A DNA stretch of 36,501 nucleotides from a virus: IMG/VR virus record IMGVR_UViG_3300032271_001334, positions 1-36,501 of that record; one strand, written 5' to 3'. The notes under the pieces were generated by a model. That model had not been told where the DNA came from and made no database searches. It saw only the letters and a list, made by a program, of their open reading frames with translations. The position numbers and the translations under genes were made by a program. Shown here in pieces: positions 1,953-33,991 of the stretch; positions within the stretch are counted from its first letter, which is position 1, and every line of letters starts with the position of its first letter.

Positions 1953-2440
1953 AAGCTAAACAGGCTTTGGCAAAATTTATCAAATGGCGCACACAAGTTA
2001 TTCCATTAGAAATAACTCGCGGACTAGAAAACACTGCGGAAAAAACACTAAAATTTGCAATCAAGCAAACGTCTGGCAAATGGACGTATGAAAAACGAGT
2101 CAGACGTGGCAGTCCTCGGACTTATACTCGGCTTTGGAAATCAATTCCAGGATGGTATCCAAACAATGATCCGTTAATTATAAATATTGAACATGGCGAG
2201 CTAGTAAAGCGGTGGCGCTCGTTAGTTGTTAGTTTTGGCAATTCTGGTGGCGGATCATTCAGGGAAGATCAGGCGACATCTGCAAGGGTGTTGAATTACG
2301 ACCCACGCGCCATGAGGCTTATAAAAGGAAATGACAAATTTATGCCCAGGCCATTTAACGTACCCATAGAAATTTACGGAGAAACCGTTTTGGCACATGA
2401 AATTAGTGCGTCAGTCAAGCGGATTATAGAGGCATGGTAG
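1949..2440 (+). CDS. HK97 gp10-like neck / minor tail protein
   Basis: Encodes 163 aa. I choose the GTG at 1949 because it makes the same GTGA overlap used by the gene before it; a TTG at 1937 would add four residues. Features are an N-terminal helix (LEITRGLENTAEKTLKFAI), a basic middle with Arg/Lys-rich turns, and a C-terminal R-P-F segment followed by a final helix. This is the usual layout of gp10-like proteins (G-x-L-R-x-S-I region, then R-P-F). The stop TAG runs directly into the GGGTTAGA box of the tube gene. Confidence 0.45.
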   Translation: MKAKQALAKFIKWRTQVIPLEITRGLENTAEKTLKFAIKQTSGKWTYEKRVRRGSPRTYTRLWKSIPGWYPNNDPLIINIEHGELVKRWRSLVVSFGNSGGGSFREDQATSARVLNYDPRAMRLIKGNDKFMPRPFNVPIEIYGETVLAHEISASVKRIIEAW

Positions 2441-2447
2441 GGTTAGA
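2440..2447 (+). promoter_or_regulatory. GGGTTAGA box before the tail tube gene
   Basis: GGGTTAGA followed by 6 bases and then ATG at 2454. This is one of seven GGTTA boxes at 7-9 bases from a start codon in this genome. There is no GGAGG here, so the box may be the initiation signal or a promoter element. Confidence 0.5.
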
Positions 2448-2453
2448 ATAGGT

Positions 2454-2930
2454 ATGGCATTGCAAGTCGATCCGATTTTAGGCGTAAACCTACAGACTGT
2501 CACGCTAACTCACATGACGAAAGTCGGAACGGCTTTAACGGCCAGCAACTCTATAGCGGTGTCGGTCCTTGTTGAGTCTTTAAAATTCAAAATCAAAACT
2601 GACAAAATGCGCATTGAAAGCGTAAATTCAACAGGAATCAATAACGTCGAAATAGCCCGTGCAGCAGATTTGTCATTGCAAATTTTCAGAGTCAGTGGCG
2701 CAACTGATCCCGACGCATTGTTGGCTTTCGTTCAAACGGTGACAGTAGGTGACATGATCCAGATTGTATACACTGAATCATCGGGTGCAAGCAATTATTC
2801 TCGGACAGTTATTGGTTCGTTTGCCGATCTGGAAACAGGGTTCGAGGGTCGCGGCAAGCAAATTGCAACGCTTAGTATAGATTCAGTTAGTGTAACCGGG
2901 GGCGCTAACTACTTTTCGGCTAGCGTATGA
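2454..2930 (+). CDS. Major tail tube protein
   Basis: Encodes 158 aa, a typical size for the tail tube subunit. It is predicted to be almost entirely beta, with many Val, Thr, Ser and Ile strands and one short helix around ATDPDALLAFVQTV (residues 82-95), as in tube proteins of long-tailed phages. It lies after the neck genes and directly before the G/GT chaperone pair, which in lambda-like phages is the place of the tube gene. The start follows a GGGTTAGA box with no classical Shine-Dalgarno, which suggests special or strong expression. Confidence 0.7.
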   Translation: MALQVDPILGVNLQTVTLTHMTKVGTALTASNSIAVSVLVESLKFKIKTDKMRIESVNSTGINNVEIARAADLSLQIFRVSGATDPDALLAFVQTVTVGDMIQIVYTESSGASNYSRTVIGSFADLETGFEGRGKQIATLSIDSVSVTGGANYFSASV

Positions 2931-3442
2931 AAATCAATCCTTATTTAGCCAGGCTAACTTCTGATGAAGTCAGGGAATTTGCAGCAGACGTACCGGCTGG
3001 AGTGTTTGATGATATGGAATCACTGACGTTTTCGGTTCGCCAACTTCCCAAGATGCTCATTATTGAATGCAGTAGTAGGGGAAAGGATAAATATAAAGCG
3101 ATGCTTGCCGACCCAGGTTCAATCCCCATGAACGGCGACATGCAATTGCTTCCGTCTAGCGATTCTTGCGGGATGATTGAAACAATCCGAACGGCTCAGC
3201 GCTGCAAGTTGGCCGAAGACATTTATACGTTTGAAGAGTTGATTGGGCTTTGGTTTATTCCAAACGCTAGTGAATTGATGCTGGAATGTTATTCATGGGT
3301 GACTCAGCCTTTATTGCAAACGGGTGGTGACGTAAACCCTTTTGGCAAACCAGTCACGCCAAATGGGTTGGCTCCTGTCTCCAATTTGGGGTTGGACATC
3401 CAGAAATCGTCCAAACCCAAACCGCGCTCCTCTGGTCGATGA
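2927..3442 (+). CDS. Tail assembly chaperone, short form (gpG-like)
   Basis: Encodes 171 aa, ATGA-coupled to the tube gene. No enzymatic motif is seen. The location between tube and tape measure, together with an overlapping -1 frame open to 3579 and a TTTGGGG slippery heptamer near the 3' end, marks it as the G partner of a G/GT chaperone pair. In the family, the short form coats the tape measure and the frameshifted form recruits tube subunits. The C-terminal tail after the slip site is Lys, Pro and Ser rich. Confidence 0.75.
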   Translation: MKINPYLARLTSDEVREFAADVPAGVFDDMESLTFSVRQLPKMLIIECSSRGKDKYKAMLADPGSIPMNGDMQLLPSSDSCGMIETIRTAQRCKLAEDIYTFEELIGLWFIPNASELMLECYSWVTQPLLQTGGDVNPFGKPVTPNGLAPVSNLGLDIQKSSKPKPRSSGR

Positions 3443-3579
3443 ACGAGCGACTAGGTGCAATTTCGGATAAACTTACCGGGCAAGCTGCGGGCGCACAGAT
3501 AGAGCGCCCGACCAGTCAATGGCTTATGGAAGTTTACGACGCATTTTGTGATGGTTGGAAATGGAAGGGGTTATTCTAA
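2927..3579 (+). CDS. Frameshifted tail assembly chaperone (gpGT-like)
   Basis: A -1 slip at TTTGGGG (3385-3391) would join residues 1-155 of the short form to 62 residues read from 3391 to 3576, stopping at TAA 3577-3579, for a 217-aa protein. The extension is stop-free and ends in an aromatic-rich tail (Y-D-A-F, then Trp-Lys-Trp-Lys). The gap between 3442 and the tape measure gene at 3581 is otherwise empty, and this frame fills it exactly. Frameshifting is inferred from sequence, not shown. Confidence 0.75.
3385..3391 (+). promoter_or_regulatory. Programmed -1 frameshift site TTTGGGG
   Basis: In the zero frame the codons read AAT TTG GGG, so the heptamer T TTG GGG fits X XXY YYZ exactly. 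It lies 52 bases before the zero-frame stop. A 7-bp hairpin (CGGGCGC with GCGCCCG, 3489-3511) lies about 100 bases downstream, probably too far away to stimulate slipping. Confidence 0.7.
3568..3573 (+). promoter_or_regulatory. GGGTTA box before the tape measure gene
   Basis: GGGTTA followed by TTCTAAT and then ATG at 3581. It is the same box and spacing as before other late genes. It supports starting the tape measure at 3581 rather than at the in-frame ATG at 3548, which lies inside the GT extension. Confidence 0.45.
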
Positions 3580-8480: not shown

Positions 8481-11306
8481 ATGTCGAGTCCTTATCAGGC
8501 TAGGCGGACGGGGCGGGTTAAGACTTTTACCTACGGTGGGAGTTTTACCGTTGCCTTGAAGGGGTTTGTAGAGGTGCATCCGCCGACGGGGTTGACTGTG
8601 CGCGAGTACATTTTGGTCGATGGATTTGCCTCAATGCCTGGAATTTTTGATGTTAATTTTGGGCTGTACGGGGTCGGAAGTAGCCGCCGGGCGGACGGAA
8701 TCAACCTGGGAATTTACTTTCCGCATACTTTGATTGCCCACAGCGACGGCGGGGCTTATCCTTACGCTGCGTACACCTGGGACACCGACGTGACTTGGTC
8801 GTTTGTGGTGGATGCGGAGGAGTGGATTGATGTTGGCGTAGCGTCAGCAGCGTTGACCGCTTTAGAGGTCACCGAAGCAAACTATCCGAACACGACATGG
8901 CGGACGGATTGGCGAACGAAGATCGGTGGCGCTTTTGCGTTGAACGCGCATACTTCCGACGGGGTGCTGGTTGCGGTTTGGACGGGGGTGGCGACCGATA
9001 CTAAACCCTTGTTTTACAAGCCTAACACCCAGAGCCGGGCGGCTTTCATTATTGCGGAAGATACCGACCCGGCGGCTTGGGGCTATTTTAACCACAGTTC
9101 CGCCCACATGGGGACGAAAACGATTTACGCTAACCTCACTGGCTCGGAGGCCCCGATTGATGTTGCGTCCTGGGCGGCTTCTGGCGCTACTTCGGTTTAC
9201 GGGGGAAGCTGGTCGGCTTCAGCGCATAACGGGGCGGGGGCGGTGGTGATTACGAGCCCTTGGAACGCCCGGTACGAGAGCCTTTTTGACCCGGCGGTTG
9301 ACCACGGGGGGCTGGTGCTAAGTGTTGCGGGTGGGCCGCCGACAGTGATTGACGTGGCGGCTAGTTTGCGACAAGTTGACCACGACCACCCGGCGGGGTC
9401 AAGCGTTTTTACTTTGACCCGAAACCAGGGTTACGACCTTTACGCTCACCCGATTATTGAAACTCGGAGCAATGTTGGAGGCGGATTGCAGACGTTTTAC
9501 AACTACTACTACGGGGTGACGGGGGTGCCGGTGCCCACTAGTATTGGGAGCCAGAACACCGGGTTTTTTGTGTTTACGGTGGAACCGGCGACCCTTGCTG
9601 CTTTGGGTGGCGGGCACCTGGACACCAGGGTTTTGATGCGAGGACAGGCGACGGATGCTTTGACATTTACCCGGGCTGACCATTTTGATTTTGTGCTTTC
9701 GGCGGGGTGGACGACTTTGAGCCCGACGACCAGGCGGGCGAGTTTTGGAGTTAAGGATTTTTCGGGTTACCGGTTTTACGAGCTGCAGACGACATCGGTT
9801 CCCGCAGGAACTACAGTTACCATCGGGTTTGGAACTTCGACCGGGGCGGCGGTGCAGACTTCGGCGGTGGTGGATAGCGCCGGACTATGTAGTTTTGACA
9901 CTCTGGCGATTGCTGCGACAAGCGGAATTGTGGACGATGCGGAATCGGTGCTAACTGGGCCTGGTCGCTGCACCCAGGTGATTGTAAGCGGTTTACCAAC
10001 GGGGGGAGTTTTGGGGACGCTGCGAGGGGTTGCACATGACCCGGCCAGCGTCGTGATGACCGCAATGGGCAATAAGCTAAGGATTCGGGCGGATGGGCGC
10101 GATCTAACCTCGATTGATGGTTTGTCGAGGGGGCGAGGGTCAGCGTTTTTGGCCGACCGAAACGACTGGGTCAACGTTGGAATTCTTGGGTGCAATTTTG
10201 CCGCCACCGCTTTGAACCCTAGTTTAAGTCTTGGCGATGCTTACGAACTGGGCGGAGCTGGTGCGATTTACGACGGAGGTTGGCAGCATACGGTTTTACA
10301 GCCATTACCCGGGACGATCCGGGCTTGCGAACTGTTTAGCCATTTTGAGCCTTGGCCGGGAAGTGGTGATGTTGCTTACGGGGGCACAAGTTACGGAACG
10401 GTGCCCGTGCGGGTTTGCAAGATTCTGGGAATGATGATTGAGGGGACGGTAAGTCAACCACGACCCGTAAATGATTCGGGTTTTGAGGTTACGGCGACAA
10501 GCGCGGACGCGACATGGACGGGAGTTACAACCGGGGCTCTGGGAGACTACCGGTTTACTTGCCCTGTTTTGGCATCGGGGTCGGTTGTTCCGGAGCCTTT
10601 CCACTTTGTTGACGTGAGTTTGACCGGCTACAGCCTGACTGCCAGTGAACTTTATCAGAACAGAGGGCTAGCGCGGGTGATGTTTTGCACTTCGCGCAAG
10701 AGCAAAGGTAAAACGGTTGCAAACAGCCATAATCATCTAGGACAATTTATCAGGGTTTCACAATCATCCTCGGGCTTAATATTAAAAATTGGAAGGGCAC
10801 TCGCCAGCGCATTATCAACCCCAATTACCATTACAACCGATACGGCTGATACTTCTCCGGCATTGTTCGTGCCAGACCATCTACATTGTCCGGTATATTT
10901 GAGCTATGTTGAAAATTCGTCCGGCTCAGCAATCCTACGCAGTTCGCTTGATGATGCTCAAACGTTCAATACCGAAATGGCAACAATTCCAAATTGCTCA
11001 CAATCGTGCGTCCTCGTCACTAGCGCCGGATGGACAGTGCTGGCCGGGTTCCAGCCGTCTGTTTCGTCTGTCACAAATGGGAGCATCCTGCTGTCGGTCA
11101 AGGGGCCTGGTGACTCGGCATTTTCGGCTCCTTATGCGATTGCCGATAGCACTGGCCCTATATCGTTTGCCGACAATGGGTTCGACTTGGCTGCATCTGC
11201 CACAACCGGGCAAGAAGCAATATTGTCGGCAACGGCTACCGGCTCTTTTGATATTTCCGAATGGTATTCACTAGATGATTTTAAGACATGGCGTTTATCC
11301 GTGTAA
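8481..11306 (+). CDS. Large minor tail / host-recognition protein, mosaic
   Basis: Encodes 941 aa, beginning after an AAAAGG ribosome site. It is beta-rich with no enzyme motif that I recognise. Towards the C-terminus there are two Asp-box-like turns (SSLDDAQTF and YSLDDFKTW), the beta-propeller signature of sialidase-like folds. Base composition changes inside the gene: 8481 to about 10690 is rich in GGG, GCG and CCG codons, while the last 600 bases return to the A/T-richer codon use of the neighbours. That suggests a swapped fibre module. The stop lies 12 bases into the converging exonuclease gene. Role as a receptor-binding or side-fibre protein is inferred from position. Confidence 0.5.
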   Translation: MSSPYQARRTGRVKTFTYGGSFTVALKGFVEVHPPTGLTVREYILVDGFASMPGIFDVNFGLYGVGSSRRADGINLGIYFPHTLIAHSDGGAYPYAAYTWDTDVTWSFVVDAEEWIDVGVASAALTALEVTEANYPNTTWRTDWRTKIGGAFALNAHTSDGVLVAVWTGVATDTKPLFYKPNTQSRAAFIIAEDTDPAAWGYFNHSSAHMGTKTIYANLTGSEAPIDVASWAASGATSVYGGSWSASAHNGAGAVVITSPWNARYESLFDPAVDHGGLVLSVAGGPPTVIDVAASLRQVDHDHPAGSSVFTLTRNQGYDLYAHPIIETRSNVGGGLQTFYNYYYGVTGVPVPTSIGSQNTGFFVFTVEPATLAALGGGHLDTRVLMRGQATDALTFTRADHFDFVLSAGWTTLSPTTRRASFGVKDFSGYRFYELQTTSVPAGTTVTIGFGTSTGAAVQTSAVVDSAGLCSFDTLAIAATSGIVDDAESVLTGPGRCTQVIVSGLPTGGVLGTLRGVAHDPASVVMTAMGNKLRIRADGRDLTSIDGLSRGRGSAFLADRNDWVNVGILGCNFAATALNPSLSLGDAYELGGAGAIYDGGWQHTVLQPLPGTIRACELFSHFEPWPGSGDVAYGGTSYGTVPVRVCKILGMMIEGTVSQPRPVNDSGFEVTATSADATWTGVTTGALGDYRFTCPVLASGSVVPEPFHFVDVSLTGYSLTASELYQNRGLARVMFCTSRKSKGKTVANSHNHLGQFIRVSQSSSGLILKIGRALASALSTPITITTDTADTSPALFVPDHLHCPVYLSYVENSSGSAILRSSLDDAQTFNTEMATIPNCSQSCVLVTSAGWTVLAGFQPSVSSVTNGSILLSVKGPGDSAFSAPYAIADSTGPISFADNGFDLAASATTGQEAILSATATGSFDISEWYSLDDFKTWRLSV

Positions 11307-13586: not shown

Positions 13587-13595
13587 TGGTATAAT
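13587..13595 (+). promoter_or_regulatory. Extended -10 promoter TGG-TATAAT
   Basis: A perfect TATAAT (13590-13595) preceded by TG plus one base gives an extended -10. The hexamer 17 bases upstream (ACCGCA) is not a good -35, which fits extended -10 promoters. It would drive the plus-strand operon starting at 13640. Confidence 0.6.
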
Positions 13596-18301: not shown

Positions 18302-18530
18302 GCGATTGAAATGTGATTGCTGCCAATCAGTGGTTGCAGTAGAAAAATGCAAGTCGTCGGCCCGTTGCGCAAAAGGGCATTATTGCCAACTTTGTATATT
18401 GGATTTTCAATATTTAATTAATTCTCGTTACAAAATTAATGTAATTGAGCAAAGCATTAAGCAAGGCATGGGTTGGAAAGTTGTTTTATTTTCGCATCTA
18501 CTAAGAAAAAAGGCGATTGCCAATGATTAA
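18291..18530 (+). CDS. Small Cys-rich zinc-binding protein
   Basis: Encodes 79 aa and overlaps the nuclease stop by 11 bases. The first 36 residues hold C-x-C-C, two further Cys, and C-x3-H-x-C-x2-C, enough for one or two zinc sites of a ribbon or RING-like knuckle. The C-terminal half is helical and basic. It sits between a nuclease and a sigma factor; a DNA- or RNA polymerase-binding regulator is possible but unproved. Confidence 0.6.
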   Translation: MANKRLKCDCCQSVVAVEKCKSSARCAKGHYCQLCILDFQYLINSRYKINVIEQSIKQGMGWKVVLFSHLLRKKAIAND

Positions 18531-19101
18531 ATTAGTAAGACTGGAAATAGTAGTAGATGACGAATGCAGCCTAGAGTTTCTACGAGACGTAACCGCCTAT
18601 AAAGATACCGAGAAAAAATATAGTTCAAGTTTGCATGATGACATAATTAGAAGAGTTTTGTTTCATACAAATAACACAACATTAACTACTGAAGATTGTG
18701 ATGACGTAGCGTCTAACGCAATCATTAAAATTTATCGGCTTTTGAAAAATGGCAAAACATTAAACAAGACTTACATTGTTCGAGTTATAAAAAATGAAAT
18801 TTGTGACGCTTTTGCAAAGCAAAGACGATTAAAAAGGTTAGATGAAAATTTAACAAGTAGCTTGGTCGCGCAAGCAAAATTACAATCAGCGGCTCTCATA
18901 GAGGAAGCAGAATCCGGGATCGAAACTATATTTTGTACATTGCCATTGAAATTAGGCATTGCGGCTCAAATGTTAGCCAGTGGCGAAACGTGGAAGGCTG
19001 TAGAATTAGCGACCGGACTTTCAAAAAAGGAGATCAGGAACTCTTTGCGTGAAAAACTAAAAAATGAATATGAAGAAACAATTAGTAGCCATCCCCAATA
19101 A
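18523..19101 (+). CDS. ECF-like RNA polymerase sigma factor
   Basis: Encodes 192 aa from ATG 18523, overlapping the previous stop by 8 bases (AATGATTAA, the same junction style as at 16074). Region 2 spans about residues 36-108: D-x2-D-D-V-A-x-N-A-I-I-K-I-Y-R, then Y-I-V-R-V-I-K-N-E-I-C-D-A-F-x3-R-R, the standard ECF pattern of helix, Y-L-x-R-I-x-x-N and D-x2-R. Region 4 is about 139-184, with a helix-turn-helix (W-K-A-V-E-L-A-T-G-L-S-K-K-E-I-R-N). It lies just upstream of the terminase genes, which suits a late-gene switch. It could also be a looser sigma-like regulator, as region 4 is weak. Confidence 0.65.
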   Translation: MIKLVRLEIVVDDECSLEFLRDVTAYKDTEKKYSSSLHDDIIRRVLFHTNNTTLTTEDCDDVASNAIIKIYRLLKNGKTLNKTYIVRVIKNEICDAFAKQRRLKRLDENLTSSLVAQAKLQSAALIEEAESGIETIFCTLPLKLGIAAQMLASGETWKAVELATGLSKKEIRNSLREKLKNEYEETISSHPQ

Positions 19102-19729
19102 TCTTGCAAGCGATGTTCTCCAATTGGAGCATTTTTGTTTTCGTCTGGCAAGCAAGGACGCTCCAGATGTTGCCTACAAGTTGGCTTTTGGCTCAATGGA
19201 CGAAGCAAACATGTCTGCACTATTGCTGGATCAATTTGTACAGGATAAAGTGCATTTATTGGTTCGGTTTCTGCGACCGGAATATACTGCCAGTGAAGAA
19301 GATCAAAAGCGACTTTACGTAGATGCCGCTAATGATGCAATGAACGCGGGCAAATTTAAAGACGCAATGGATGCAATGCAGCGGGCCACACAAGCCGCTG
19401 GAACGGTTATTGTTGATCCTAGCACATCCATCTACAATACTACGGATGATGAGTTAGAACGATTGTCTGATCTGCCTTTGCGGAATCAGCTCAAAGCACA
19501 TTTTAACGCAATAGGATGGAAAAATTTACGAATTAAATTACCTACTCATACCGGAGCCGTTTTTATGGCAAGCAAACCGCTTAGTGAACAGTGGCCGGAA
19601 GGGGCTGAAAACAAAAGCGCGGAAGCGTTTGAGATTTACGAATTATGCCGCGCCATATCGTTTGCTTATCACGGTGAACCCAGATTACAAGCTAGTGAAT
19701 TGAATGTTGAAAATTTCACCCCCGGATAA
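19064..19729 (+). CDS. Candidate terminase small subunit
   Basis: Encodes 221 aa and overlaps the sigma gene by 38 bases. It is helical and Ala/Asp rich, with no clear DNA-binding motif. The only argument for TerS is that it is the gene directly before the large terminase and overlaps it by 26 bases, as terminase pairs usually do. An alternative start ATG at 19070 is possible. Confidence 0.4.
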   Translation: MNMKKQLVAIPNNLASDVLQLEHFCFRLASKDAPDVAYKLAFGSMDEANMSALLLDQFVQDKVHLLVRFLRPEYTASEEDQKRLYVDAANDAMNAGKFKDAMDAMQRATQAAGTVIVDPSTSIYNTTDDELERLSDLPLRNQLKAHFNAIGWKNLRIKLPTHTGAVFMASKPLSEQWPEGAENKSAEAFEIYELCRAISFAYHGEPRLQASELNVENFTPG

Positions 19730-21221
19730 GTGTGCCCAATACAAGAAGGCGTTTGCCCACGACCCAACATTGTTTGCAAAAGTAGAGTTAAAACAAACGT
19801 TTTGGAGTGGGCAGGTTAAAATAGCTCAGGCTTTAGTTGATCCTGGCGCACAGAAAATAATGGTTTTATCTTGCCACGGTGCTGGAAAAAGTAACAGTTT
19901 AGCGTGTTTCTCCTTGTGGCATTATTATTGTTATAATCCTAGTTATACAATTTTAACTGCTCCGAGTGAAAAGAGCGTAACTCATGTTTTGTTTGCCGAG
20001 ATTAGACGATTAGTCAACAATAACCATCCCGATCTTGCCCCAATGGTGCCCAGGCTTTACGGAGGACCTGCACATTGGATCGAAGGGTTTACAGCCAAGG
20101 ATGGAACAGCGTTTCAGGGGCGACACAAGCAAAACATGTTACTTGGATTTGATGAAGCGGTTGGTGTTGCATCATCGTTTTGGTCATCCGCAATTGGGAT
20201 GCTCATAAATCCCGAAAGAAAAATGATTGCTGCGATGAACCCAACAGACAAGACAAGCCGAGCGTATCAGGAATACGTTCGCGGGGGGTGGCATGTAATC
20301 CGCCTAAGCGCATTGGATCACCCTAATATTGTGGATTGGCACGAGGGCAACACGCCTCGAATACCGGGAGCGGTTACAGGCAACTGGGTTAATGATCGAG
20401 TTAAGGAGTGGTGTAAATCCGTGCCAGCTGCCAGTAAAGAGGCTTGGGATTTTGAATGGCCCTTAAATTCTGGGCAATGGCACCGACCGGACGGAGAATT
20501 TGAAGCCCGTGTGCTCGGTCGATGGCCCCGGCAAGGCAGTCGATCCGTGTGGAGCGATGCTGAATTAGAATTAACTTGCAAAGAGCAGGTGTTATCATTA
20601 GCGCCCCGTTTAGTTTGCGGGCTAGACGTTGCAAGATATGGCGACGATATGTCGGTTCTGCACGGCAGGATCGGTAATTGCTCGTTAATACATGAGCGTT
20701 GGGGTAAAAGTTCGGTGGTCGAAACGGCTCATACTGCAAAAATGGCAATGCTAAACAAACTTCGCGAATTATTTTCGCCAGCCCAGGCAGAAATCGAGTT
20801 AAAACGAGCATTGGTTGTGGTGGATGAAACGGGAGTCGGTGGAGGTGTTGCAGATATTCTGGCTGCTGATGGGTTGCAGGTTGATCCCGTAAATTTTGCG
20901 TCCGAAGCCGTTGAGGCAGAGCGTTATCCTAACGCCCGATCAGAGCTATGGTTTAACGCTCAAGAGTTGGCAGGGCTTGGGCGTGTGGATTTAAGCCGAA
21001 TTGATACCCCATCGTTAGACATGCTTAAAATCGAGCTAATTGCACCTCAATGGAGCCAAGACGCTAAAGGGCGACGGCGAGTTGAGGCCAAGGATGACAC
21101 GAAAAAGCGCGTAGGACGCTCGCCGGATAACGCAGACGCATTTAATTTATGCCAGTACAACCGCCAAGGCGGAGAACTAAAACCGTTTTTTATTGCACAA
21201 CCTACTAGGTCTTATTTTTAA
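19704..21221 (+). CDS. terL: Terminase large subunit
   Basis: Encodes 505 aa. The ATPase motor has Walker A CHGAGKS (57-63) and Walker B LLGFDEA (D150, E151), then MNP as the coupling motif. The C-terminal RNase H-like nuclease has GLDVARYGDD (D308 and D314/315), VVVDETGVGGG (D374) and a final SPDNADAF acidic patch. It drives DNA into the prohead and cuts it. Packaging genes here are about 7 kb away from the portal gene, with the integrase and lysis region between them, which is not the common lambda order. Confidence 0.9.
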   Translation: MLKISPPDKCAQYKKAFAHDPTLFAKVELKQTFWSGQVKIAQALVDPGAQKIMVLSCHGAGKSNSLACFSLWHYYCYNPSYTILTAPSEKSVTHVLFAEIRRLVNNNHPDLAPMVPRLYGGPAHWIEGFTAKDGTAFQGRHKQNMLLGFDEAVGVASSFWSSAIGMLINPERKMIAAMNPTDKTSRAYQEYVRGGWHVIRLSALDHPNIVDWHEGNTPRIPGAVTGNWVNDRVKEWCKSVPAASKEAWDFEWPLNSGQWHRPDGEFEARVLGRWPRQGSRSVWSDAELELTCKEQVLSLAPRLVCGLDVARYGDDMSVLHGRIGNCSLIHERWGKSSVVETAHTAKMAMLNKLRELFSPAQAEIELKRALVVVDETGVGGGVADILAADGLQVDPVNFASEAVEAERYPNARSELWFNAQELAGLGRVDLSRIDTPSLDMLKIELIAPQWSQDAKGRRRVEAKDDTKKRVGRSPDNADAFNLCQYNRQGGELKPFFIAQPTRSYF

Positions 21222-21550: not shown

Positions 21551-21577
21551 CTATGCATCATGTAACTGCAAGAGCCA

Positions 21578-22268: not shown

Positions 22269-22603
22269 TGCTCTAACCCCGGCTGACCGTCACCATTGTT
22301 AATTTGCGTAATGTTTGCGACCACGGGTGCCGATGATGCAGTTGACAAAGCTGAAGCCTGTGATAGACCAAAGTCCAAAACGGATAATTGGTTAGAATGT
22401 CGCCAAGCGTTGACGCCAGCCAAAACAAGCGACCCAAACGCCTCGGCAGCGCTAATAGCGTGCCCGTTGACGTGTAAGTCGAGAGCGATATTGACAAGAT
22501 CGGGGGCCCATGCAGAATCATGTTTGTCAATAACATCAGATCCCAATTTAACAAGATCAGGAAGCATTGGCAGAATGGTCAGAGCGATAGAAAGGGGGTT
22601 CAT
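22265..22603 (-). CDS. Protein of unknown function
   Basis: Encodes 112 aa. ATG at 22603 is supported by AAGGA 8 bases upstream; a longer reading to 22648 has no such site. The product is hydrophobic at the N-terminus (MNPLSIALTILPMLPDLV), then helical and Ala/Ser rich. It is not a clear membrane protein. It follows a small two-helix membrane protein on the same strand, so a lysis or envelope role is possible but not shown. Confidence 0.55.
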   Translation of the reverse strand: MNPLSIALTILPMLPDLVKLGSDVIDKHDSAWAPDLVNIALDLHVNGHAISAAEAFGSLVLAGVNAWRHSNQLSVLDFGLSQASALSTASSAPVVANITQINNGDGQPGLEQ

Positions 22604-22662
22604 AGCGTTTGTCCTTGTAAGCTGTCCAGTAATGCCGGAGCAATACATGTGGCGCGTATATT

Positions 22663-22842
22663 CTAACCCATATCCCCATCGGTATCACAACCGTGGTCGT
22701 GGTCACAAATGACGTAAACCCCGGCCACAACAACTACACTGATAGTCAAAATCACCACGACCGTCAACCACCTCTCGGCCATATCAAAACCATAGCTTGA
22801 TGTTATCAAGACATCAAGCAGCAAAGCGCCTAGAAGTATCAT
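22663..22842 (-). CDS. Small two-helix membrane protein, holin candidate
   Basis: Encodes 59 aa. ATG 22842 is supported by GGAGG 10 bases upstream. Hydrophobic segments lie at residues 1-16 and 25-45, separated by a short charged turn. The tail is polar with His, Asp and Cys (CDHDHGCDTDGD). This is the size and layout of a class II holin or a small inner-membrane protein. No endolysin adjoins it. Its start codon lies in a CATG shared with a plus-strand ORF going the other way. Confidence 0.5.
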   Translation of the reverse strand: MILLGALLLDVLITSSYGFDMAERWLTVVVILTISVVVVAGVYVICDHDHGCDTDGDMG

Positions 22843-25504: not shown

Positions 25505-25512
25505 GGGTTAGA
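25505..25512 (+). promoter_or_regulatory. GGGTTAGA box before GTG 25519
   Basis: GGGTTAGA, then 6 bases, then GTG. It gives the start of the membrane protein gene and is the only member of the box family outside the head and tail genes. Confidence 0.45.
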
Positions 25513-26339: not shown

Positions 26340-26345
26340 TATAAT
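26340..26345 (+). promoter_or_regulatory. -10 box TATAAT, 8 bases before ATG 26354
   Basis: Perfect TATAAT in an AT-rich 128-base gap (26226-26353). TTGCAT lies 19 bases upstream. With AGTTTTCT between the box and ATG, the mRNA would have almost no leader. Confidence 0.55.
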
Positions 26346-26353
26346 AGTTTTCT

Positions 26354-26554: not shown

Positions 26555-26558
26555 CGCT

Positions 26559-26843: not shown

Positions 26844-27013
26844 TCTTGGTAACTGCTAAACGTAGTTATGGCGCAGAAGACATTGTTGGGGCAATTATTT
26901 GCTGGGCTGTAATCTTTTTAATGATCGGGTATACCTGGGCTTGGCAAGCTGAACGGAGTCGAATTGAATCTTGCCGGACAGATTCTCATTATTGTCAGGA
27001 GACTACCAAATGA
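26840..27013 (+). CDS. Small single-span membrane protein
   Basis: Encodes 57 aa. The start at 26840 is given by GGAGGT 6 bases upstream and by the ATGA overlap. One membrane helix (about 13-36) precedes a polar tail with two Cys. Function is unknown. It is part of the coupled chain of short genes before the integrase. Confidence 0.55.
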   Translation: MILVTAKRSYGAEDIVGAIICWAVIFLMIGYTWAWQAERSRIESCRTDSHYCQETTK

Positions 27014-27246
27014 GCGTAAATCCTATAGTCGAAATTGTGGCTTCTACGGTTTACTACAATGGCGGAAAGGTAGCGTACCGGCTGGTTTTTATTGACGGAC
27101 CCAACAAATATCTGGTACTTGCGGATGGTTTAGACCACGGACAAGCCATTATATTGCGCGATACCTACAACTTGATTGTGGGCAACGCTAGTAAAAACCG
27201 CAAAATTTCAAACAAAGCCAATATTGCCGGATCGAGTGCATTATGA
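27010..27246 (+). CDS. Small protein of unknown function
   Basis: Encodes 78 aa. AGGAG lies 8 bases before ATG 27010, which overlaps the previous stop (ATGA). It is predicted to be a small beta-rich protein: N-terminal strands with Y-Y-N-G-G-K-V-A-Y-R, then a D-G-L-D-H-G turn. It is not recognised. Confidence 0.55.
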   Translation: MSVNPIVEIVASTVYYNGGKVAYRLVFIDGPNKYLVLADGLDHGQAIILRDTYNLIVGNASKNRKISNKANIAGSSAL

Positions 27247-27359
27247 TGGATGGCAACGATCCAATTATGCCTAATCCAGAGATGGGCAAAATGCATTTTG
27301 ATGACATTGGCGCTTATCTCCGGTTAAGCAAGCGCCCGATATTTTGCGGCAAGATTTAG
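27243..27359 (+). CDS. Very short coupled ORF of unknown function
   Basis: A 38-aa ORF starting in an ATGA overlap with the previous gene and ending TAG at 27357-27359. It is Met-, Pro- and Asp-rich at the start and ends basic. The coupling is the main support. It is followed by a 113-base gap with a CACCCAC/GTGGGTG hairpin (27366-27400) before the integrase, where an attachment site would be expected. Confidence 0.4.
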   Translation: MMDGNDPIMPNPEMGKMHFDDIGAYLRLSKRPIFCGKI

Positions 27360-27457
27360 ACCTTGCACCCACTCGCCAGCTAAATGCTAAAGCGTGGGTG
27401 GTGTTGCTAGCATTGCCGGTAGGACAACCTGACAATATTTAGCGATTGATTAAAACG

Positions 27458-27466
27458 TGGTATAAT
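27458..27466 (+). promoter_or_regulatory. Integrase promoter, extended -10 TGG-TATAAT
   Basis: The same TGGTATAAT as at 13587. The ATG at 27473 begins 6 bases after the box, so the mRNA is probably leaderless. No good -35 is seen. Confidence 0.55.
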
Positions 27467-27472
27467 GATTGC

Positions 27473-28303
27473 ATGGAACTTGTTCAGCAATCCGTTACAT
27501 CCCTTTTTTTATCCGGTCGTCCGGCTACTACAACCAGATTATATTCTGCCGATTTGGGAAAATTTGTTCAATTTATTGGAAAAGATTTGCTTTTAGCAAC
27601 CCCATTTGACGTGCAGGGTTTTTTGGATTCTATTGATTCGCCGGTAGGTGCTGAACGTGCGTTAAAAGTCATTCGGAGTTTTTTTAGTTTTGCCGTAAAA
27701 GTTGGGGCTTTGCAACGCAATCCAGCGATTGTTGCAAAAGTAGTGATCTTAGATCGCCCGGTATGGACTCGCATTTTAACCGAAATCGATGTGCAGCGGA
27801 TTATGTTAGAATTGCAACGTAAAGATGGCGCGTTAGGTGCGCTACTGTATGGCACAGGGTTGCGGCGCTCGGAAGCGGTGGCCGTCAATATTAATGATAT
27901 TCGGGAGGTTGCCGGTGGGGCAGTTTTAACCGTTATAGGCAAAGGGGGTAAAGCCCGCCAGGTCGTTTTGTCTAGCTGGGTATGGGTTGCAGTTAAAGCT
28001 CAAATGGATGCAGTAGGTGAAGGATGCTTGTTCCAGGGTCGTCAAGGGGCGTTGTCGGACAGTCAAATTTACCGACGATTCAAGGAAGCTGCCGTAGCGG
28101 CAGGCTTGCCACACGTTTCGCCCCACTGGTTTAGGCATAGCCATGTAAGTCACGCTTTGGACAACGGATGCCCGGTACATGTCGTGCAGCAATCGGTAGG
28201 ACACGCATCGTTAGCCACGACAACGGCTTATGCGCATGTAAAACCATCGAGTAGTCCGTCGTCCTACTTGCGTGATTTATGCGGGGGTGGTTGTCAGCTA
28301 TAG
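27473..28303 (+). CDS. int: Tyrosine-family integrase
   Basis: Encodes 276 aa. The N-terminal SAM-like DNA-binding domain is about 1-92. The catalytic domain has R131 (TGLRRSE), K157 (VIGKGGK), H218-x-x-R221 (HWFRHSH), H244 (VGHAS) and the nucleophile Y253 (TTTAYAH), the complete RKHRHY set. The size is that of XerC/D-like recombinases without an arm-binding domain. It would integrate the phage into the host chromosome, so the phage is probably temperate. I start at ATG 27473; the in-frame TTG at 27446 lies upstream of the -10 box. A terminator follows, separating it from the late genes. Confidence 0.9.
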   Translation: MELVQQSVTSLFLSGRPATTTRLYSADLGKFVQFIGKDLLLATPFDVQGFLDSIDSPVGAERALKVIRSFFSFAVKVGALQRNPAIVAKVVILDRPVWTRILTEIDVQRIMLELQRKDGALGALLYGTGLRRSEAVAVNINDIREVAGGAVLTVIGKGGKARQVVLSSWVWVAVKAQMDAVGEGCLFQGRQGALSDSQIYRRFKEAAVAAGLPHVSPHWFRHSHVSHALDNGCPVHVVQQSVGHASLATTTAYAHVKPSSSPSSYLRDLCGGGCQL

Positions 28304-28360
28304 GGGTTAGAATTATTGCGGCGGGTGCAAGCCGTAAATTGCGCCATTTTGCAAAGGGGT

Positions 28361-28394
28361 CGGGGTTAGGTGTAAACCTACCCCGCTTTATTTT
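28361..28394 (+). terminator. Rho-independent terminator after the integrase
   Basis: CGGGGT (28361-28366) pairs with ACCCCG (28380-28385) and, after a bulged T, AGGT pairs with ACCT, with a GTAA loop. CTTTATTTT follows. It insulates the portal gene from integrase transcription. Confidence 0.75.
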
Positions 28395-28415
28395 AGGGAG
28401 TGCAACGCTGCAAAC

Positions 28416-28423
28416 GGGTTAGA
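28416..28423 (+). promoter_or_regulatory. GGGTTAGA box before the portal gene
   Basis: GGGTTAGA, then TTCAGC, then ATG 28430. It lies just past the integrase terminator at the head of the late operon, so new transcription must start near here. The box decides the start against the in-frame GTG at 28400. Confidence 0.5.
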
Positions 28424-28429
28424 TTCAGC

Positions 28430-29884
28430 ATGGCAACAAAAAAGCAAGGCGAAAAATTGCCGAATAAAAAGCTGGAAAGCGATTTAGACGCCGAGTTACT
28501 AAAAGAACTGGGCGGAATCCGTGGCGCTGAATCCAACAATATTTCCGCGTCTAGCCGGACTTTGTGGTGGGATCGAGCCGTTATTGCAATTAACGATTCG
28601 GTTGATGACATTGAGGCAACATATGGGCCAACGCTGTATGATGAAATGATGACCGACCCAACAGCACAAGGGGTAGTCAATGCGCTTGTGGCTTTGGTAC
28701 AGCAGTGCCGACCTGACCTGAAAGCATCGCACGAAAACAACGCTTACGCCAAAATGTCAGATGTGCAGCGTGAAGAAGCTGAAGCGTCGCAAGAAATTCT
28801 CAAATTTTGCGTATATTCCTTGGAGCGCTTGGGGCAAAACTGCAATAGTTCCGCCACAACCTTAATGCGGGAGATGGTCGAGCGAGCTGTAACGCACGGT
28901 CATTGCCTTGCAGAGATCATCTATGAATTTATGGAAACCGGCCTTTACGCTGGCAAATTGGTGTTGCGGTCAATTGTTCCTAAGCCGAGAGAGCGTTACG
29001 TTCATTTAGTCGATCAGCAAAATGGATTAATCGGAGTTCAGGCCATTATTCCTGGCAAAAACTATGCTATATGGAATGGAGTATGGGACAAAAGCACAAT
29101 AACAGGCATTCCAGGTTTTTTACCTAAATCCAAAGTTTTCAATTTTGCTTTTTGGAGCAAAAATGGATCTCCAATTGGTCGCTCTTTGCTGCGTGGTGCA
29201 TATCGTCCGTGGATCAAACGAAAAATGGGAGACACGGAAGATTTGAACACTGCCATGTCGTTTGGTGGCGGGCAATGGAGCGCCGAAGCGGATGTAAAAG
29301 TTAGAGCAACCGATCAGGGCACCAAAGATTTGGAAACGTCAGTCAAGCGCATGTCCAATTCGGGCACAATGGTGTTGCCTCCAGGATACACACTTAAACG
29401 ACACAATCCAGCACAGGTAGATTTTTTCCAAGGGTTTTTGCAACGATGCCGAACCGACATTACTGAAGGCATTTTTGGAGCTGCGCGAGCGTTTATCGAA
29501 AGCAAAAGCGGGTCGAAAGCAGATTCACAAACCGCCCAGGACATCAGCCTAATTGTGGCCGAAGTGATTGCTGATGCTTACGGGGAGTCATTGCGCAGTC
29601 AAATTTTGTATCCACTGGTTCAATTAAATTTTGGAATTGACGCAGCCGATAAATTTACTCCGCAAGTTATTCTGAACCATCCTACGACACAGGATATCCC
29701 ACGAATGGCCGAAGCTTTGGCGCATCTAATGTCATCGAGCGCTCTTCCTAAAAATATGCTGTCGCAAGCCGTGGAAAAATGGTTGGGGTTGACGTGGCAA
29801 GAGCCTGATGACTGGGACACAGCATTTCTCACTCCGGGCAAGCAAGCCAAGCAGCCGGGTGGAATAGATAAGCGAGATTTATAG
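28430..29884 (+). CDS. Portal protein (Mu gp29 / DUF935-like)
   Basis: Encodes 484 aa. Family-type features: an N-terminal helical region with D-P-T-A-Q-G-V-V-N-A-L (subunit helix), E-I-I-Y-E-F and a central G-S-P-I-G-R-S-L-L-R-G-A-Y-R-P-W element typical of portals, followed by a K-R-M-x-N-S-G-T-x-V-L-P segment and a helical C-terminus. It forms the dodecameric ring through which the terminase packs DNA. As the first gene of the late operon it is followed by small genes and the head protease. Confidence 0.75.
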   Translation: MATKKQGEKLPNKKLESDLDAELLKELGGIRGAESNNISASSRTLWWDRAVIAINDSVDDIEATYGPTLYDEMMTDPTAQGVVNALVALVQQCRPDLKASHENNAYAKMSDVQREEAEASQEILKFCVYSLERLGQNCNSSATTLMREMVERAVTHGHCLAEIIYEFMETGLYAGKLVLRSIVPKPRERYVHLVDQQNGLIGVQAIIPGKNYAIWNGVWDKSTITGIPGFLPKSKVFNFAFWSKNGSPIGRSLLRGAYRPWIKRKMGDTEDLNTAMSFGGGQWSAEADVKVRATDQGTKDLETSVKRMSNSGTMVLPPGYTLKRHNPAQVDFFQGFLQRCRTDITEGIFGAARAFIESKSGSKADSQTAQDISLIVAEVIADAYGESLRSQILYPLVQLNFGIDAADKFTPQVILNHPTTQDIPRMAEALAHLMSSSALPKNMLSQAVEKWLGLTWQEPDDWDTAFLTPGKQAKQPGGIDKRDL

Positions 29885-29891
29885 GGTTAGA
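29884..29891 (+). promoter_or_regulatory. GGGTTAGA box before 29897
   Basis: The box starts in the stop codon of the portal gene: TAG-GGTTAGA, then AAGAT, then ATG. The arrangement is the same as at 2440. Confidence 0.45.
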
Positions 29892-29896
29892 AAGAT

Positions 29897-30343
29897 ATGT
29901 CCGAAACTTGGTTTACAGGCAATCCAACATGCGAAGGCAATAATCGGGTCTTGGTGGTTGGTGCCGATTATGTGCAAAAGGAAACCGGCTGGCGATTCGC
30001 CTTGCATGTCGAAGTTGACCCAGGCAAAACGGTTCAAGAATCTTGCGCAATCTTGCAAACATTAAAAGGTGAAGGCGAGACAAATTTTGACTTTATTGCG
30101 TTGCAAATTATCGGTACTATCGAGGAATGGATATTGCAATATAACGCTAATCGGTTGTTGCGAATACAATGTTGCTTGTTAAATGCAAACCGGTTTGGGT
30201 TGCCGGTGCATGTATGTTGCCCCGAACAATTGCTCAATTATCTTGGCTGGAGTGAAAATGCGCTGACCGAGATTAAAGAAAGTTCGGAATCCAGTGGTGT
30301 ACTTTGGGGTCTAAATATTGAACCTTTAAACGAGGTGCAATAA
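29897..30343 (+). CDS. Protein of unknown function in the head module
   Basis: Encodes 148 aa. No motif is recognised. The sequence looks like a compact alpha/beta protein, with V-L-V-V-G-A-D-Y at the N-terminus and an R-L-L-R-I-Q-C-C-L-L strand with a C-C pair later. It sits between the portal and the GH75-like gene, has its own GGGTTAGA box, and overlaps the next start (TAATG). Confidence 0.5.
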   Translation: MSETWFTGNPTCEGNNRVLVVGADYVQKETGWRFALHVEVDPGKTVQESCAILQTLKGEGETNFDFIALQIIGTIEEWILQYNANRLLRIQCCLLNANRFGLPVHVCCPEQLLNYLGWSENALTEIKESSESSGVLWGLNIEPLNEVQ

Positions 30344-30918
30344 TGCTAATAGATCAATTAAGGGCTTTGCCCCACGCAACGTACATTCCGTCAATTTCGA
30401 TAGCAAAATTCCAATCGGGAATTATGTTTACAGATGGGTCGCTTTTGATCCGAACATCGGAAGCCGATCTGGATACTGACGGGATTGATTCAGGCGCGAT
30501 TGATATTTGGGACGCAGATCACCAATCGCAAACGTCCATTGATCCAAGCGGGCAATGGCTAGGAGCAAATGAAATCCCATATGTGGTGCTGCCAAAATGG
30601 CTAGCTGATGCTAATAAATTTTCGCTTGGCACGGTTTGCATGGTGGCTCTTGGGCTCAATGCCGAAACTTACGCATTTGGAATTTTGGCTGATTACGGCC
30701 CAACCCACAAGATTGGTGAGGCAAGTATTCAAATGTGGCGGCTCTTGGGGCAAGAGCGTGTAAAAAATTACAAGGTTGTAAACCAAGGAATTGATGGGCC
30801 TTGCAGATTTTTATTTTTCAAAAATTCGGCTATAACAATGGCGACCAACACAAATGACATTCAGGTCACCGGCGCTAAACTGCTCAACAATCTTTTAAAT
30901 TCTGAGGCGGGAAAATGA
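30343..30918 (+). CDS. GH75 (chitosanase-family) glycoside hydrolase, endolysin candidate
   Basis: Encodes 191 aa, with GAGGTG 6-7 bases upstream. It matches the GH75 pattern: an acidic turn (D42, D44, D46, G47), P-Y-V-V-L-P (residues 79-84), G-x-V-C-M-V strands and D117-Y-G-P-x4-G-E126-A-S, the segment holding the catalytic Asp and Glu in the family. GH75 enzymes cut chitosan, and phage members presumably cut peptidoglycan or another wall glycan. No other endolysin is found in the window, so this may be the lysin, unusually placed inside the head genes. No signal peptide is seen. Confidence 0.65.
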   Translation: MLIDQLRALPHATYIPSISIAKFQSGIMFTDGSLLIRTSEADLDTDGIDSGAIDIWDADHQSQTSIDPSGQWLGANEIPYVVLPKWLADANKFSLGTVCMVALGLNAETYAFGILADYGPTHKIGEASIQMWRLLGQERVKNYKVVNQGIDGPCRFLFFKNSAITMATNTNDIQVTGAKLLNNLLNSEAGK

Positions 30919-32228
30919 ACGTAGTAGATCAACGATTTTTAAACGCAATTGCCACTCACGGCGCGTACTGGGCGCTAGATCAAAAGGCAGTAACCGGAAT
31001 TGTGGCTGAATTAAATGCCGAAACTTATGCAAGTCATTTGGCACGCGCTAAAGCAAATTCAAAACCTGAAGTTGAGCAAACAGCGGCGGGTAATATTGCG
31101 ATGATTTATGTTGAAGGAGTTTTGACTAAAAAGGGAGCATCTTTATCGGCTCAATCATCAACAATTTTAATTCGCCAGGCGGTTCGCGATGCAATTGCCG
31201 ATGACACTAAAACGGGAATTGTTTTGGTGTTTGACAGTCCAGGCGGCGCAATTTTTGGAACACACGAATTAGCGGAAGATATTGCAGCAGGCAATTTGAT
31301 TAAACCTATTTATGCTTACGTTGACGGGGTTTGCGCTTCCGCAGCTTACTGGATTGCCTCGCAATGTCGGGAAATATGGGCTGGCCCTAATAGCGTGGTT
31401 GGCTCGGTTGGAGTTTACACGGTTGTGGTGGATTCGTCGGCTCAAGCAATAATGGCTGGTGTTAAAGTGAACTTAATTGCAAGCGGTGAATATAAAGGCG
31501 CTGGGCAACCGGGTACAGAAGTTTCCGATAATCACGTTGCGGCAATTCATGCTGAGATTTTACCAATTTTTAATAATTTTAAGGAAGCAATTGCAATTGG
31601 CCGAAAACTTGATCCAGCAACAGTGGATGGCCTTGCTGATGGTCGCTGCTGGGTTGGTGAGCAAGGGGTAAGCGTGGGACTAGTGGATGTGATTGCTCCA
31701 CTCGAAACGCTGCTAGGTGCAATTGTTTCTACAGAAGGCAATACTAGTCTACAAAATGATTTAGATGAGGGGTTAGATCAATATATGGCAAAACAAAGCC
31801 TGTTGGAACAAGCGCTAACCTTAATGGGAATTAATAAACCCGCAGTCTCGGCAACCACCGAGGCGCCAACCGTGGATGTAGATTCGCTTAAAGCAGAATT
31901 GGCCCAGGCAAAAATTGAAGCGGCGACAAGTAAAGCCACTGGTTTTATTGCGGGATTGGTGCGCTCTGGATTACTAATCCCTGCGCAAGCAGATGGGGCG
32001 GTAAGTCTGCTAGCCCAGGCTTACCAGAATAGCCCGGAAATGGCAGCCGAAATGGAAGATGTGTTTTCAGCCGGAGCCGACAATACTTTGCAGAAATCAA
32101 TGTTAAGCGGAGCGATTGTCACTCCACTGGCTGCAACGGGTGCTGCAAATGAAGAAGCGGTTAAAGCAGCTTTAATGAGCATGACAAGTCTGGGTAAAAA
32201 AACTTTAGCCCAGAAAGGTGAAAAATAA
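30915..32228 (+). CDS. S49 (SppA/gpC-like) head maturation protease with scaffold domain
   Basis: Encodes 437 aa, ATGA-coupled. The S49 domain is at about 58-265: FDSPGG at 106-111, then VCASAAYWIAS with Ser142 as nucleophile, and GEYKGAG with Lys194 as the general base, the Ser-Lys dyad spacing of phage capsid proteases. The C-terminal 147 residues (291-437) are Ala/Gln/Lys-rich and helical, like a scaffold. As in lambda C/Nu3, this part can also be made separately from an internal ATG at 31785. It processes the prohead together with portal and capsid. Confidence 0.8.
   Translation: MNVVDQRFLNAIATHGAYWALDQKAVTGIVAELNAETYASHLARAKANSKPEVEQTAAGNIAMIYVEGVLTKKGASLSAQSSTILIRQAVRDAIADDTKTGIVLVFDSPGGAIFGTHELAEDIAAGNLIKPIYAYVDGVCASAAYWIASQCREIWAGPNSVVGSVGVYTVVVDSSAQAIMAGVKVNLIASGEYKGAGQPGTEVSDNHVAAIHAEILPIFNNFKEAIAIGRKLDPATVDGLADGRCWVGEQGVSVGLVDVIAPLETLLGAIVSTEGNTSLQNDLDEGLDQYMAKQSLLEQALTLMGINKPAVSATTEAPTVDVDSLKAELAQAKIEAATSKATGFIAGLVRSGLLIPAQADGAVSLLAQAYQNSPEMAAEMEDVFSAGADNTLQKSMLSGAIVTPLAATGAANEEAVKAALMSMTSLGKKTLAQKGEK
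31770..31777 (+). promoter_or_regulatory. GGGTTAGA box before the internal scaffold start
   Basis: GGGTTAGA lies inside the protease gene with TCAATAT before the in-frame ATG 31785 (7 bases after GA). It is partly preceded by GAGG. Its presence here, in the middle of a coding frame, argues that the box marks real starts. Confidence 0.45.
31785..32228 (+). CDS. Nested scaffold protein (Nu3-like)
   Basis: A 147-aa product from an in-frame internal start in the protease gene (Met291). The segment is helical with charged repeats (VDSLKAELAQAKIEAATSKAT) and a basic C-terminus, as needed for binding capsid during shell assembly. The lambda precedent for this arrangement is C/Nu3. A GGGTTAGA box and GAGGGG sit just upstream. 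Independent translation is inferred. Confidence 0.6.
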   Translation: MAKQSLLEQALTLMGINKPAVSATTEAPTVDVDSLKAELAQAKIEAATSKATGFIAGLVRSGLLIPAQADGAVSLLAQAYQNSPEMAAEMEDVFSAGADNTLQKSMLSGAIVTPLAATGAANEEAVKAALMSMTSLGKKTLAQKGEK

Positions 32229-32920
32229 TGTCAACTACCAGATTCTCACTCGGGCGAGTCGAGCCTAAATCCGGCGGTCCATTGGGCCACAGGAACAACA
32301 TGCGATTTGTTTCAGGGTTTTATCCAGCTGGAACTATCGTCGCCTCAACTACATTGTCTGCTGCAATTTCCACGGCGGCTGGATCAAATACCGGAAACGG
32401 AACCATTGGCACTTTAAATTCTGGTCCACTAACATTGCCGGGAGTTTATATTGCCACGCTTACTAGCGCTACTGCATTTGCGGTGGTTGGTCCTGACGGC
32501 ACGGCGATAAATAATGGTGTCGTAGGGGTAGCTTACAATTCGCCTTCTGGAACTGTTTATGCCGGGTTAAGCGCAACCATTACCGCTGGAACTACTCCAT
32601 TTGTGGTTGGAGATAAATTCTTAATCACGGTGCCGGGGCGAGGCATGGGCAAAGCTTACAATCACGCATCAGCCGATGGTTCGCAAGTAGCCGCTGGTGT
32701 TCTTGAGTACGATCTAACCGTTGATTCAAGCGGAGCCCACTATTACGGTCAAACAGCATTGGAAAGCAACGGAGGTATTCGTTTTGAAGCCGAATACTGG
32801 ATTACTGGACTTTTTGACACAGCAACACTGATTGGGCTAGACGCATACGCGGTTGGTCAACTTGGACGATTTGTTTATGGCAACCTGACCGACGGCGGCG
32901 ATTTCCTACTATTAGGTTAA
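32228..32920 (+). CDS. Head decoration protein (gpD-like)
   Basis: Encodes 230 aa, starting at TAATG after AAAGGTG. It lies between protease and capsid, the exact place of lambda D. It is beta-rich with G-x-F-Y-P-A-G-T-I-V and a C-terminal Y-G-N-L-T-D-G-G end. At 230 aa it is about twice the length of gpD, because a Gly/Thr/Ser-rich insert (about 45-150) of the capsid-protein-associated type is added. It would cap the threefold sites of the expanded head. Confidence 0.7.
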   Translation: MSTTRFSLGRVEPKSGGPLGHRNNMRFVSGFYPAGTIVASTTLSAAISTAAGSNTGNGTIGTLNSGPLTLPGVYIATLTSATAFAVVGPDGTAINNGVVGVAYNSPSGTVYAGLSATITAGTTPFVVGDKFLITVPGRGMGKAYNHASADGSQVAAGVLEYDLTVDSSGAHYYGQTALESNGGIRFEAEYWITGLFDTATLIGLDAYAVGQLGRFVYGNLTDGGDFLLLG

Positions 32921-32921
32921 A
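32914..32921 (+). promoter_or_regulatory. AGGTTAAA box before the major capsid gene
   Basis: AGGTTAAA, then TAAA plus one A, then ATG 32927 (7 bases after GGTTA). It is a near match to the GGGTTAGA boxes. The capsid gene has no Shine-Dalgarno, although it must be among the most strongly expressed genes. Confidence 0.4.
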
Positions 32922-32926
32922 ATAAA

Positions 32927-33991
32927 ATGGCAACTACTACTTACACTTTTCCCAATTCTGCGGTAATTAGCAGCATCTTGCAAGACAAACTTCCGGCGAG
33001 GCTTAGTGACCTTGGCGACGATGCTTTGCTACAACACCTTCCAATGCAATCCGTGAATGCGGTAAAAGTTATTTGGGAGCAATTGGACAATTATCAAGGA
33101 ACCACGCAAATTCGTGGTTACGGCGTCAATCCAGTTCGCATTGCACGAGCTGGGATTAACCGGTTTAACATGGACCCGGGCGTTTACGGTGATTCGGCTC
33201 TCGTTGATGAAGAGGATTTGACTGTCCGCCGAGAAATGGGAACTTTTGGCTTGCCAGTCAAAATTGATGACCTAGTTATGGAGCGCCAAGACGCGCTGAT
33301 TGATCGGTTTGTCAATTTCTACCGGCTGCAAGCGGGAATGCTATTTACGCAGGGTCAGGTAACTTACGGTGACGGTAAAAAATTAAACGTAAATCAGTCG
33401 TTTCCACTGCAAACATTTACCGCAATATACCCGTGGTCAAATACTGCGCAGTCAACTCCACTAGCCGATTTAAGGGCACTTGCATTGCTGCAACGAGGGC
33501 ACTCTGTTGATTTTGGACAAGGTGTCATTATGCTTAACCGAAGTATGATGAACTACGTTTTGGCAAACACTAACGCTGCCGACCTTGGTGGAAAGCGTCA
33601 ACTTGTCGGAATGCAGAAAATTGGAGGTGGCATTTTAAACGTTGAGCAGCTTAATTTCATCCTTCAAGCGGAAAACTTGCCGACAATCAGCATTTACGAC
33701 AAGACTTATTACCCAGTTGGTTCAAGCACTCCCACTTTGTTTATTCCCGATGGTAAAGCGGTTGTAATTGGTCGGCGGGATAATGGAGAGCCATTGGCGA
33801 GGTTTCTTTTGACTCGAAACGCAAAAAACATGATGCCCGCAGACGGCGTTATGAAGCCGTTTGAAAATCTTGCTATGCAAGTTATCAACAAGTCGGAAAT
33901 TCAAGCGGTGCCAGAAATTGAGGTTTCGCTGATGTTTAATGGTGGCCCTGCAATCTACTTCCCTTCCGGCATTGTCAAAATGTCGATTTAA
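32927..33991 (+). CDS. Major capsid protein (gpE-like, HK97 fold)
   Basis: Encodes 354 aa. The order protease, decoration protein and this gene, the length, and family-type segments support a lambda gpE-type capsid subunit. Those segments are an early N-terminal helix, a basic mid-region with Y-G-V-N-P-V-R-I-A-R-A-G, a long spine helix with M-E-R-Q-D-A-L-I-D-R-F and Y-G-D-G-K-K-L-N, and a C-terminal strand with P-E-I-E-V-S-L-M-F. There is no separate prodomain, consistent with a separate scaffold. Confidence 0.8.
   Translation: MATTTYTFPNSAVISSILQDKLPARLSDLGDDALLQHLPMQSVNAVKVIWEQLDNYQGTTQIRGYGVNPVRIARAGINRFNMDPGVYGDSALVDEEDLTVRREMGTFGLPVKIDDLVMERQDALIDRFVNFYRLQAGMLFTQGQVTYGDGKKLNVNQSFPLQTFTAIYPWSNTAQSTPLADLRALALLQRGHSVDFGQGVIMLNRSMMNYVLANTNAADLGGKRQLVGMQKIGGGILNVEQLNFILQAENLPTISIYDKTYYPVGSSTPTLFIPDGKAVVIGRRDNGEPLARFLLTRNAKNMMPADGVMKPFENLAMQVINKSEIQAVPEIEVSLMFNGGPAIYFPSGIVKMSI

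Follow-up and report, generated by a model that had tools for sequence, protein, structure and literature searches.

Phage T4 encodes gp55, a small sigma factor whose -10-only late promoters stand singly before many late genes and also inside operons. In TA-led leaderless genes, found in Deinococcus-Thermus, Actinobacteria and some Chloroflexi, a -10-like box lies about 12 bp before the start codon, a Shine-Dalgarno (SD) site is unneeded and a -35 element is optional. This TA-type -10 element of bacterial leaderless genes resembles TATAAT in groups of medium GC, Chloroflexi among them (PMC3160421), and boxes of this kind in Deinococcus function as -10 elements for which a ribosome-binding site cannot substitute (PMC12340547). 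Among phages, leaderless middle and late transcripts are described for Thermus phage phiYS40 (PMC3594737).

Here we analyse a repeated box, GGGTTAGA, that precedes the main late genes of a virus from IMG/VR. We put the probability at roughly 0.65 that the box is the -10 element of phage late promoters, read by an ECF-like phage sigma factor and giving leaderless or near-leaderless mRNA. The window, by which we mean the whole 36,501-base stretch analysed, reads as a temperate phage; its genes include an integrase, a helicase, a terminase, a portal, an S49-type head protease and a capsid protein of phrog_29 (Table 1). Its positions 1–99 and 36403–36501 form an exact 99-base direct repeat, so the contig could represent a whole circular genome; the repeat sits within a tail-fibre repeat array, and alternatively the contig collapsed there. 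Elsewhere in the window, the protein of 30343–30918, between the head-cluster gene of unassigned role and the protease gene, weakly matches a fungal-type chitosanase (GH75, PF07335). An AAA_23/SMC-like ATPase (11879–13279) and a partner ORF (11295–11879) lie on the minus strand, antiparallel to their neighbours; the two may form a cargo, defence-like pair. Within a leftward HTH_36 replication-like gene, a CACCACGTTCATCCCCCCCTG-type unit is repeated in tandem at 24500–24620, and these repeats are possible iterons.

Table 1. Boxes, TATAAT elements and genes discussed in the text, in positions of the window
Feature	Position	Strand	Context or basis
GGGTTAGA box	2440..2447	+	6 nt before ATG 2454, putative tail tube
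weaker box GGGTTATT	3568..3575	+	5 nt before ATG 3581, putative tape measure
TATAAT, candidate host-type leaderless promoter	13590..13595	+	5 nt before ATG 13601, early ORF, first of replication cluster
candidate gene for a divergent ECF-like sigma factor of 194 aa, proposed box reader	18517..19101	+	Sigma70_r2, TIGR02937/SigX, phrog_1740, weak fold matches
large terminase	19704..21221	+	phrog_2; soon after sigma gene
GGGTTAGA box	22272..22279	-	3 nt before ATG 22268, small doubtful leftward ORF
GGGTTAGA box heading leftward unit	22662..22669	-	~65 nt before likely start 22603 (MNPLSIAL)
GGGTTAGA box	25505..25512	+	6 nt before GTG 25519, predicted membrane protein
TATAAT	26340..26345	+	8 nt before ATG 26354, HTH protein
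TATAAT	27461..27466	+	6 nt before ATG 27473, integrase
GGGTTAGA box	28304..28311	+	between integrase end and portal, without adjoining recognised gene start
GGGTTAGA box	28416..28423	+	6 nt before ATG 28430, portal
portal	28430..29884	+	phrog_113
GGGTTAGA box	29884..29891	+	5 nt before ATG 29897, head-cluster protein of unassigned role
head maturation protease (S49 type), with nested scaffold start	30915..32228	+	phrog_53
GGGTTAGA box, inside protease gene	31770..31777	+	7 nt before internal ATG 31785, nested scaffold
weaker box AGGTTAAA	32914..32921	+	5 nt before ATG 32927, major capsid protein
major capsid protein	32927..33991	+	phrog_29; relatives

An earlier note on this DNA had listed GGTTA before seven gene starts and judged the count far above chance, and both claims hold. 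The word is present at all seven genes, its last base 7–9 nt from the start codon. It begins 10–14 nt upstream at 8 of 45 curated starts (two minor starts in this list, neither of a box gene, are off by a few bases), whereas random start-codon triplets of the same genome averaged 0.26 and never exceeded 3; in 5,000 random draws there was no 5-mer with a count of 8. The full unit, GGGTTAGA, occurs eight times, with 0.67 copies expected and 4 in the richest of 100 shuffles. Of these copies, five belong to listed late genes and another precedes a small leftward ORF; the exact boxes at 22279 (-), 22669 (-) and 28304 (+) were missing from the earlier list. One box gene, at 25519, has an uncertain GTG start, with an in-frame ATG downstream at about 25573 as the alternative. 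Among the 8-mers listed, those with a stronger excess than GGGTTAGA come largely from a local low-complexity repeat at 21553–21900 and 22690–22770, whose GGTCGTGG-type words have the strongest 8-mer excess of the window; the ORF at 21553, in this repeat region, is rich in Ser, Gly, Trp and Arg.

In a weight-matrix scan, eight strong sites scored above 13 and the next best 11.7. The boxes of the genes at 3581 and 32927 scored about 10, which is background-like once position is ignored, and it is by position alone that these two copies are credible. A near copy, GGTAGA, that had been claimed before 21290 fell outside the 30 best hits and was rejected. Boxes precede 7 of 21 structural or late genes and none of 11 early genes, an early/late split that is only marginally significant (Fisher P 0.07). 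The box itself is real and far above chance.

A second class of element stands at early genes. Exact TATAAT with an ATG 5–8 nt downstream occurs three times in the window, each time at a predicted gene start (about 0.05 expected, P about 2e-5); the bare TATAAT-N5-8-ATG pattern is not rare, with 1.25 expected, and is unusual only in falling on predicted gene starts. In all seven listed late boxes, GGT begins 12–14 nt before the start codon; at two of the three TATAAT sites, GGT begins 13–14 nt before it. By this common register, GGGTTAGA would hold the -10 position for an RNA whose 5' end is at the ATG or adjoins it. In TA-led genes the -10-like signal lies about 10–12 bp before the start, and here box and TATAAT begin 10–14 nt upstream. 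The TA-led consensus TANNNT is matched by the early TATAAT boxes, whereas most late boxes are without its final T (TAGAAA, TAGATC, TAGATG, TAGAGC). The window further differs from TA-led genes in that its late box is GGGTTAGA, limited to phage late genes, alongside TATAAT at early genes.

These observations suggest a mechanism in which RNA polymerase carrying the phage ECF-like sigma factor (18517–19101) would open DNA at GGGTTAGA without a conserved -35 element, and RNA would start about 6 nt downstream of the box. Because the box ends 5–7 nt before most late start codons, the mRNA would begin at the ATG or 1–2 nt from it, and it would be translated as a leaderless message with no need of an ordinary ribosome-binding site, as in TA-led genes. 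Early genes would use the same arrangement, the host sigma there reading a TATAAT box. More tentatively, and at slightly less than even odds, the -10-only GGGTTAGA and the ECF-like sigma may form a separately promoted leaderless late regulon, in which one box, locked to the main late start codons, would set the start of both transcription and translation. As in the T4 gp55 system, a small phage-encoded sigma would then serve individually placed -10-only late promoters; the late box is TATAAATA in T4 and GGGTTAGA in the window, and T4 late mRNAs keep leaders with SD sites. Leaderless late mRNAs would be shared with phiYS40, the counterpart in the window being read from sequence; no sequence relation to that phage was found, and the window encodes its own sigma-like protein.

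The candidate sigma gene is placed between the replication genes and the terminase. Its product matches Pfam Sigma70_r2 just above the gathering score (E 2e-5), ECF/SigX models and TIGR02937 of NCBIfam below their curated cut-offs (E 3e-6) and, over residues 43–187, the phage sigma family phrog_1740 (E 1e-3). A single-sequence structure model was of low confidence (pLDDT 54); its top fold match was sigma-E region 2 with its -10 DNA, sigma factors were also among the further matches several times, and no fold match had E < 0.001. Sequence searches of phage records and the PDB with this protein gave no match. The sigma assignment is a predicted one, from modest profile scores and a low-confidence model. 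By these profile matches the phage, like T4, would encode a protein of the sigma-70 family; unlike gp55, it is ECF-like with a possible region 4, and it is probably what reads GGGTTAGA.

Like the earlier note, we saw no common -35 element: no upstream word was shared beyond shuffles (ten sequences, low power). This counts against the promoter reading, since a C-terminal HTH seems to be retained in the sigma; a missing -35 is not a strong objection to promoters of a -10-only class. Two of the eight exact boxes, 22669 (-) and 28304 (+), lie away from start codons. ATG 22648 lies 20 nt from the box at 22669, and the more credible start at 22603 carries its own AAGGA SD, so a transcript begun at this box would have a leader of some 50 nt. 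The copy at 28304 lies 3' of the integrase gene, with the portal ATG about 125 nt further downstream; a hairpin-T, terminator-like structure follows, then the portal's own box, and this copy is a possible extra late promoter. At both sites, a promoter is a better fit than a signal for ribosomes. The box at 22279 suits a promoter less well: only 3 nt from the ATG, it is too close for a leaderless start, if the doubtful ORF is real.

Close relatives of the window were found neither in viral contigs, with capsid, helicase, portal and sigma as single queries, nor by megablast of 26000–36501 against phages. Capsid alignment searches returned ten viral contigs at 36–42% identity and Microcystis phage Mae-JY24 (PP438416.1) at 30%, and one prophage relative lies in a genome from the phylum of a Caldilineaceae (Chloroflexota) genome. 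The nearest neighbours of the integrase, in cyanobacteria and, at 37%, a Caldilineaceae (Chloroflexota), are not decisive for the host. Mae-JY24 and the IMG/VR relatives, their capsids 30–42% identical, share the head gene order portal-protease-capsid with the window, but they are without a repeated box at the same genes and most have an SD at the capsid start, where the window has its box. No repeated GGGTTAGA at gene starts was seen in these distant relatives, Mae-JY24 or the prophage, and among the matches listed in a scan of viral contigs for GGGTTAGA-N2-5-ATGGCA, no locus had a box cluster like that of the window. The earlier note had held that relatives lacking the box at the same genes would count as a refutation. 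The distant relatives do lack it, but they are too remote, and probably infect too different hosts, to refute the box, which as far as can be seen appears specific to the window's lineage. The start of a nested scaffold within the head protease gene (30915–32228) recalls lambda C/Nu3; two of the relatives (L130 and L133) have SD-like sites at the internal start, where the window has a box. Mae-JY24 has a GC content of 61.6% over the 26.7 kb read, and its head genes are common to phages seemingly of other phyla. Such a GC content is high for a Microcystis host, and the host assignment of this phage may deserve a check.

An alternative that we consider unlikely is that the box is a non-Shine-Dalgarno translation signal, read by an unusual host 16S 3' end, a ribosomal protein or a phage factor, by which late genes are preferentially translated. 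The box stands where GGAGG would, with GGTTA 7–9 nt from the start codon, and several copies lie in tight operons or inside the protease gene, where a ribosome-binding site would fit too. The homologous capsid genes of most relatives carry an SD at this place: duplex energies there run from -6.6 to -12 kcal/mol in most of the distant relatives, with two exceptions, whereas the capsid gene of the window has a poor SD (-3.6 kcal/mol) and the box in its place. Against a translation signal stand the two exact boxes away from any start codon, one of them before a gene with its own SD, and the TATAAT of early genes in the same register.

Pairing with the 16S tail, normal or extended by UCUAA, was examined as the form of this explanation offered in the earlier note, and it fits poorly. 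Computed with textbook 16S tails, which may not be the host's, duplex energies averaged -5.4 (normal) and -6.0 (extended) kcal/mol for box genes and -4.3 and -4.9 kcal/mol for the others, and do not set the box genes apart. Of nine box sites, just two gain clearly in pairing from the extended tail. Pairing of TTAGA with UCUAA would fall further upstream, needing a longer spacing, and the GGG is left without a partner; with textbook tails, the box thus does not offer SD complementarity at SD spacing, and pairing with either tail was rejected. Nor does the claim that box genes lack GGAGG while other genes have it discriminate between the two sets: most non-box genes also lack a good SD, and GGAGG is present in only a few. 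The other explanation in that note, a -10 element of the phage sigma, is the better supported of the two: the TATAAT register, the boxes away from starts and the ECF-like gene all argue for it, and from them we infer the promoter role.

That the box is a -10 element read instead by a host sigma, for example a group-3 factor whose -10 is of the GGG type, or by host sigma-A acting with a co-factor from the phage, seems improbable. TAGAAT, seen at some boxes, is one base from TATAAT, and sigma-B type factors have -10 elements that start with GGG. There is also the precedent of Thermus phage P23-45, whose extended -10 late promoters are used by host sigma-A with remodelling factors (PMC7403470). 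Past TAGA, however, the boxes are without the conserved final T of a sigma-A -10 element, and the phage has its own sigma-like gene, placed before the terminase. Very improbable, finally, is an operator or mRNA-binding site of a phage late-gene regulator, neither promoter nor ribosome site: a single conserved word at many late genes and the HTH proteins encoded by the phage would suit it, but the distance to start codons is tight, the orientation relative to the gene is the same at nearly all sites and GGGTTAGA is not palindromic.

A late promoter system of the kind we propose for the phage sigma and GGGTTAGA is known in parts, from phiYS40 and from T4 gp55; the sequence of the box and the combination look new for the window's lineage. 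If the reading is true, the window would offer a clear case of a phage late regulon on leaderless mRNA, controlled by a sigma that the phage itself encodes, in a lineage that has no close relative in culture. It would also show that a motif can occupy the SD position and yet not be a ribosome-binding site. The box would then give a sequence-level marker for late genes, a means to correct start-codon calls and a compact, orthogonal expression element.
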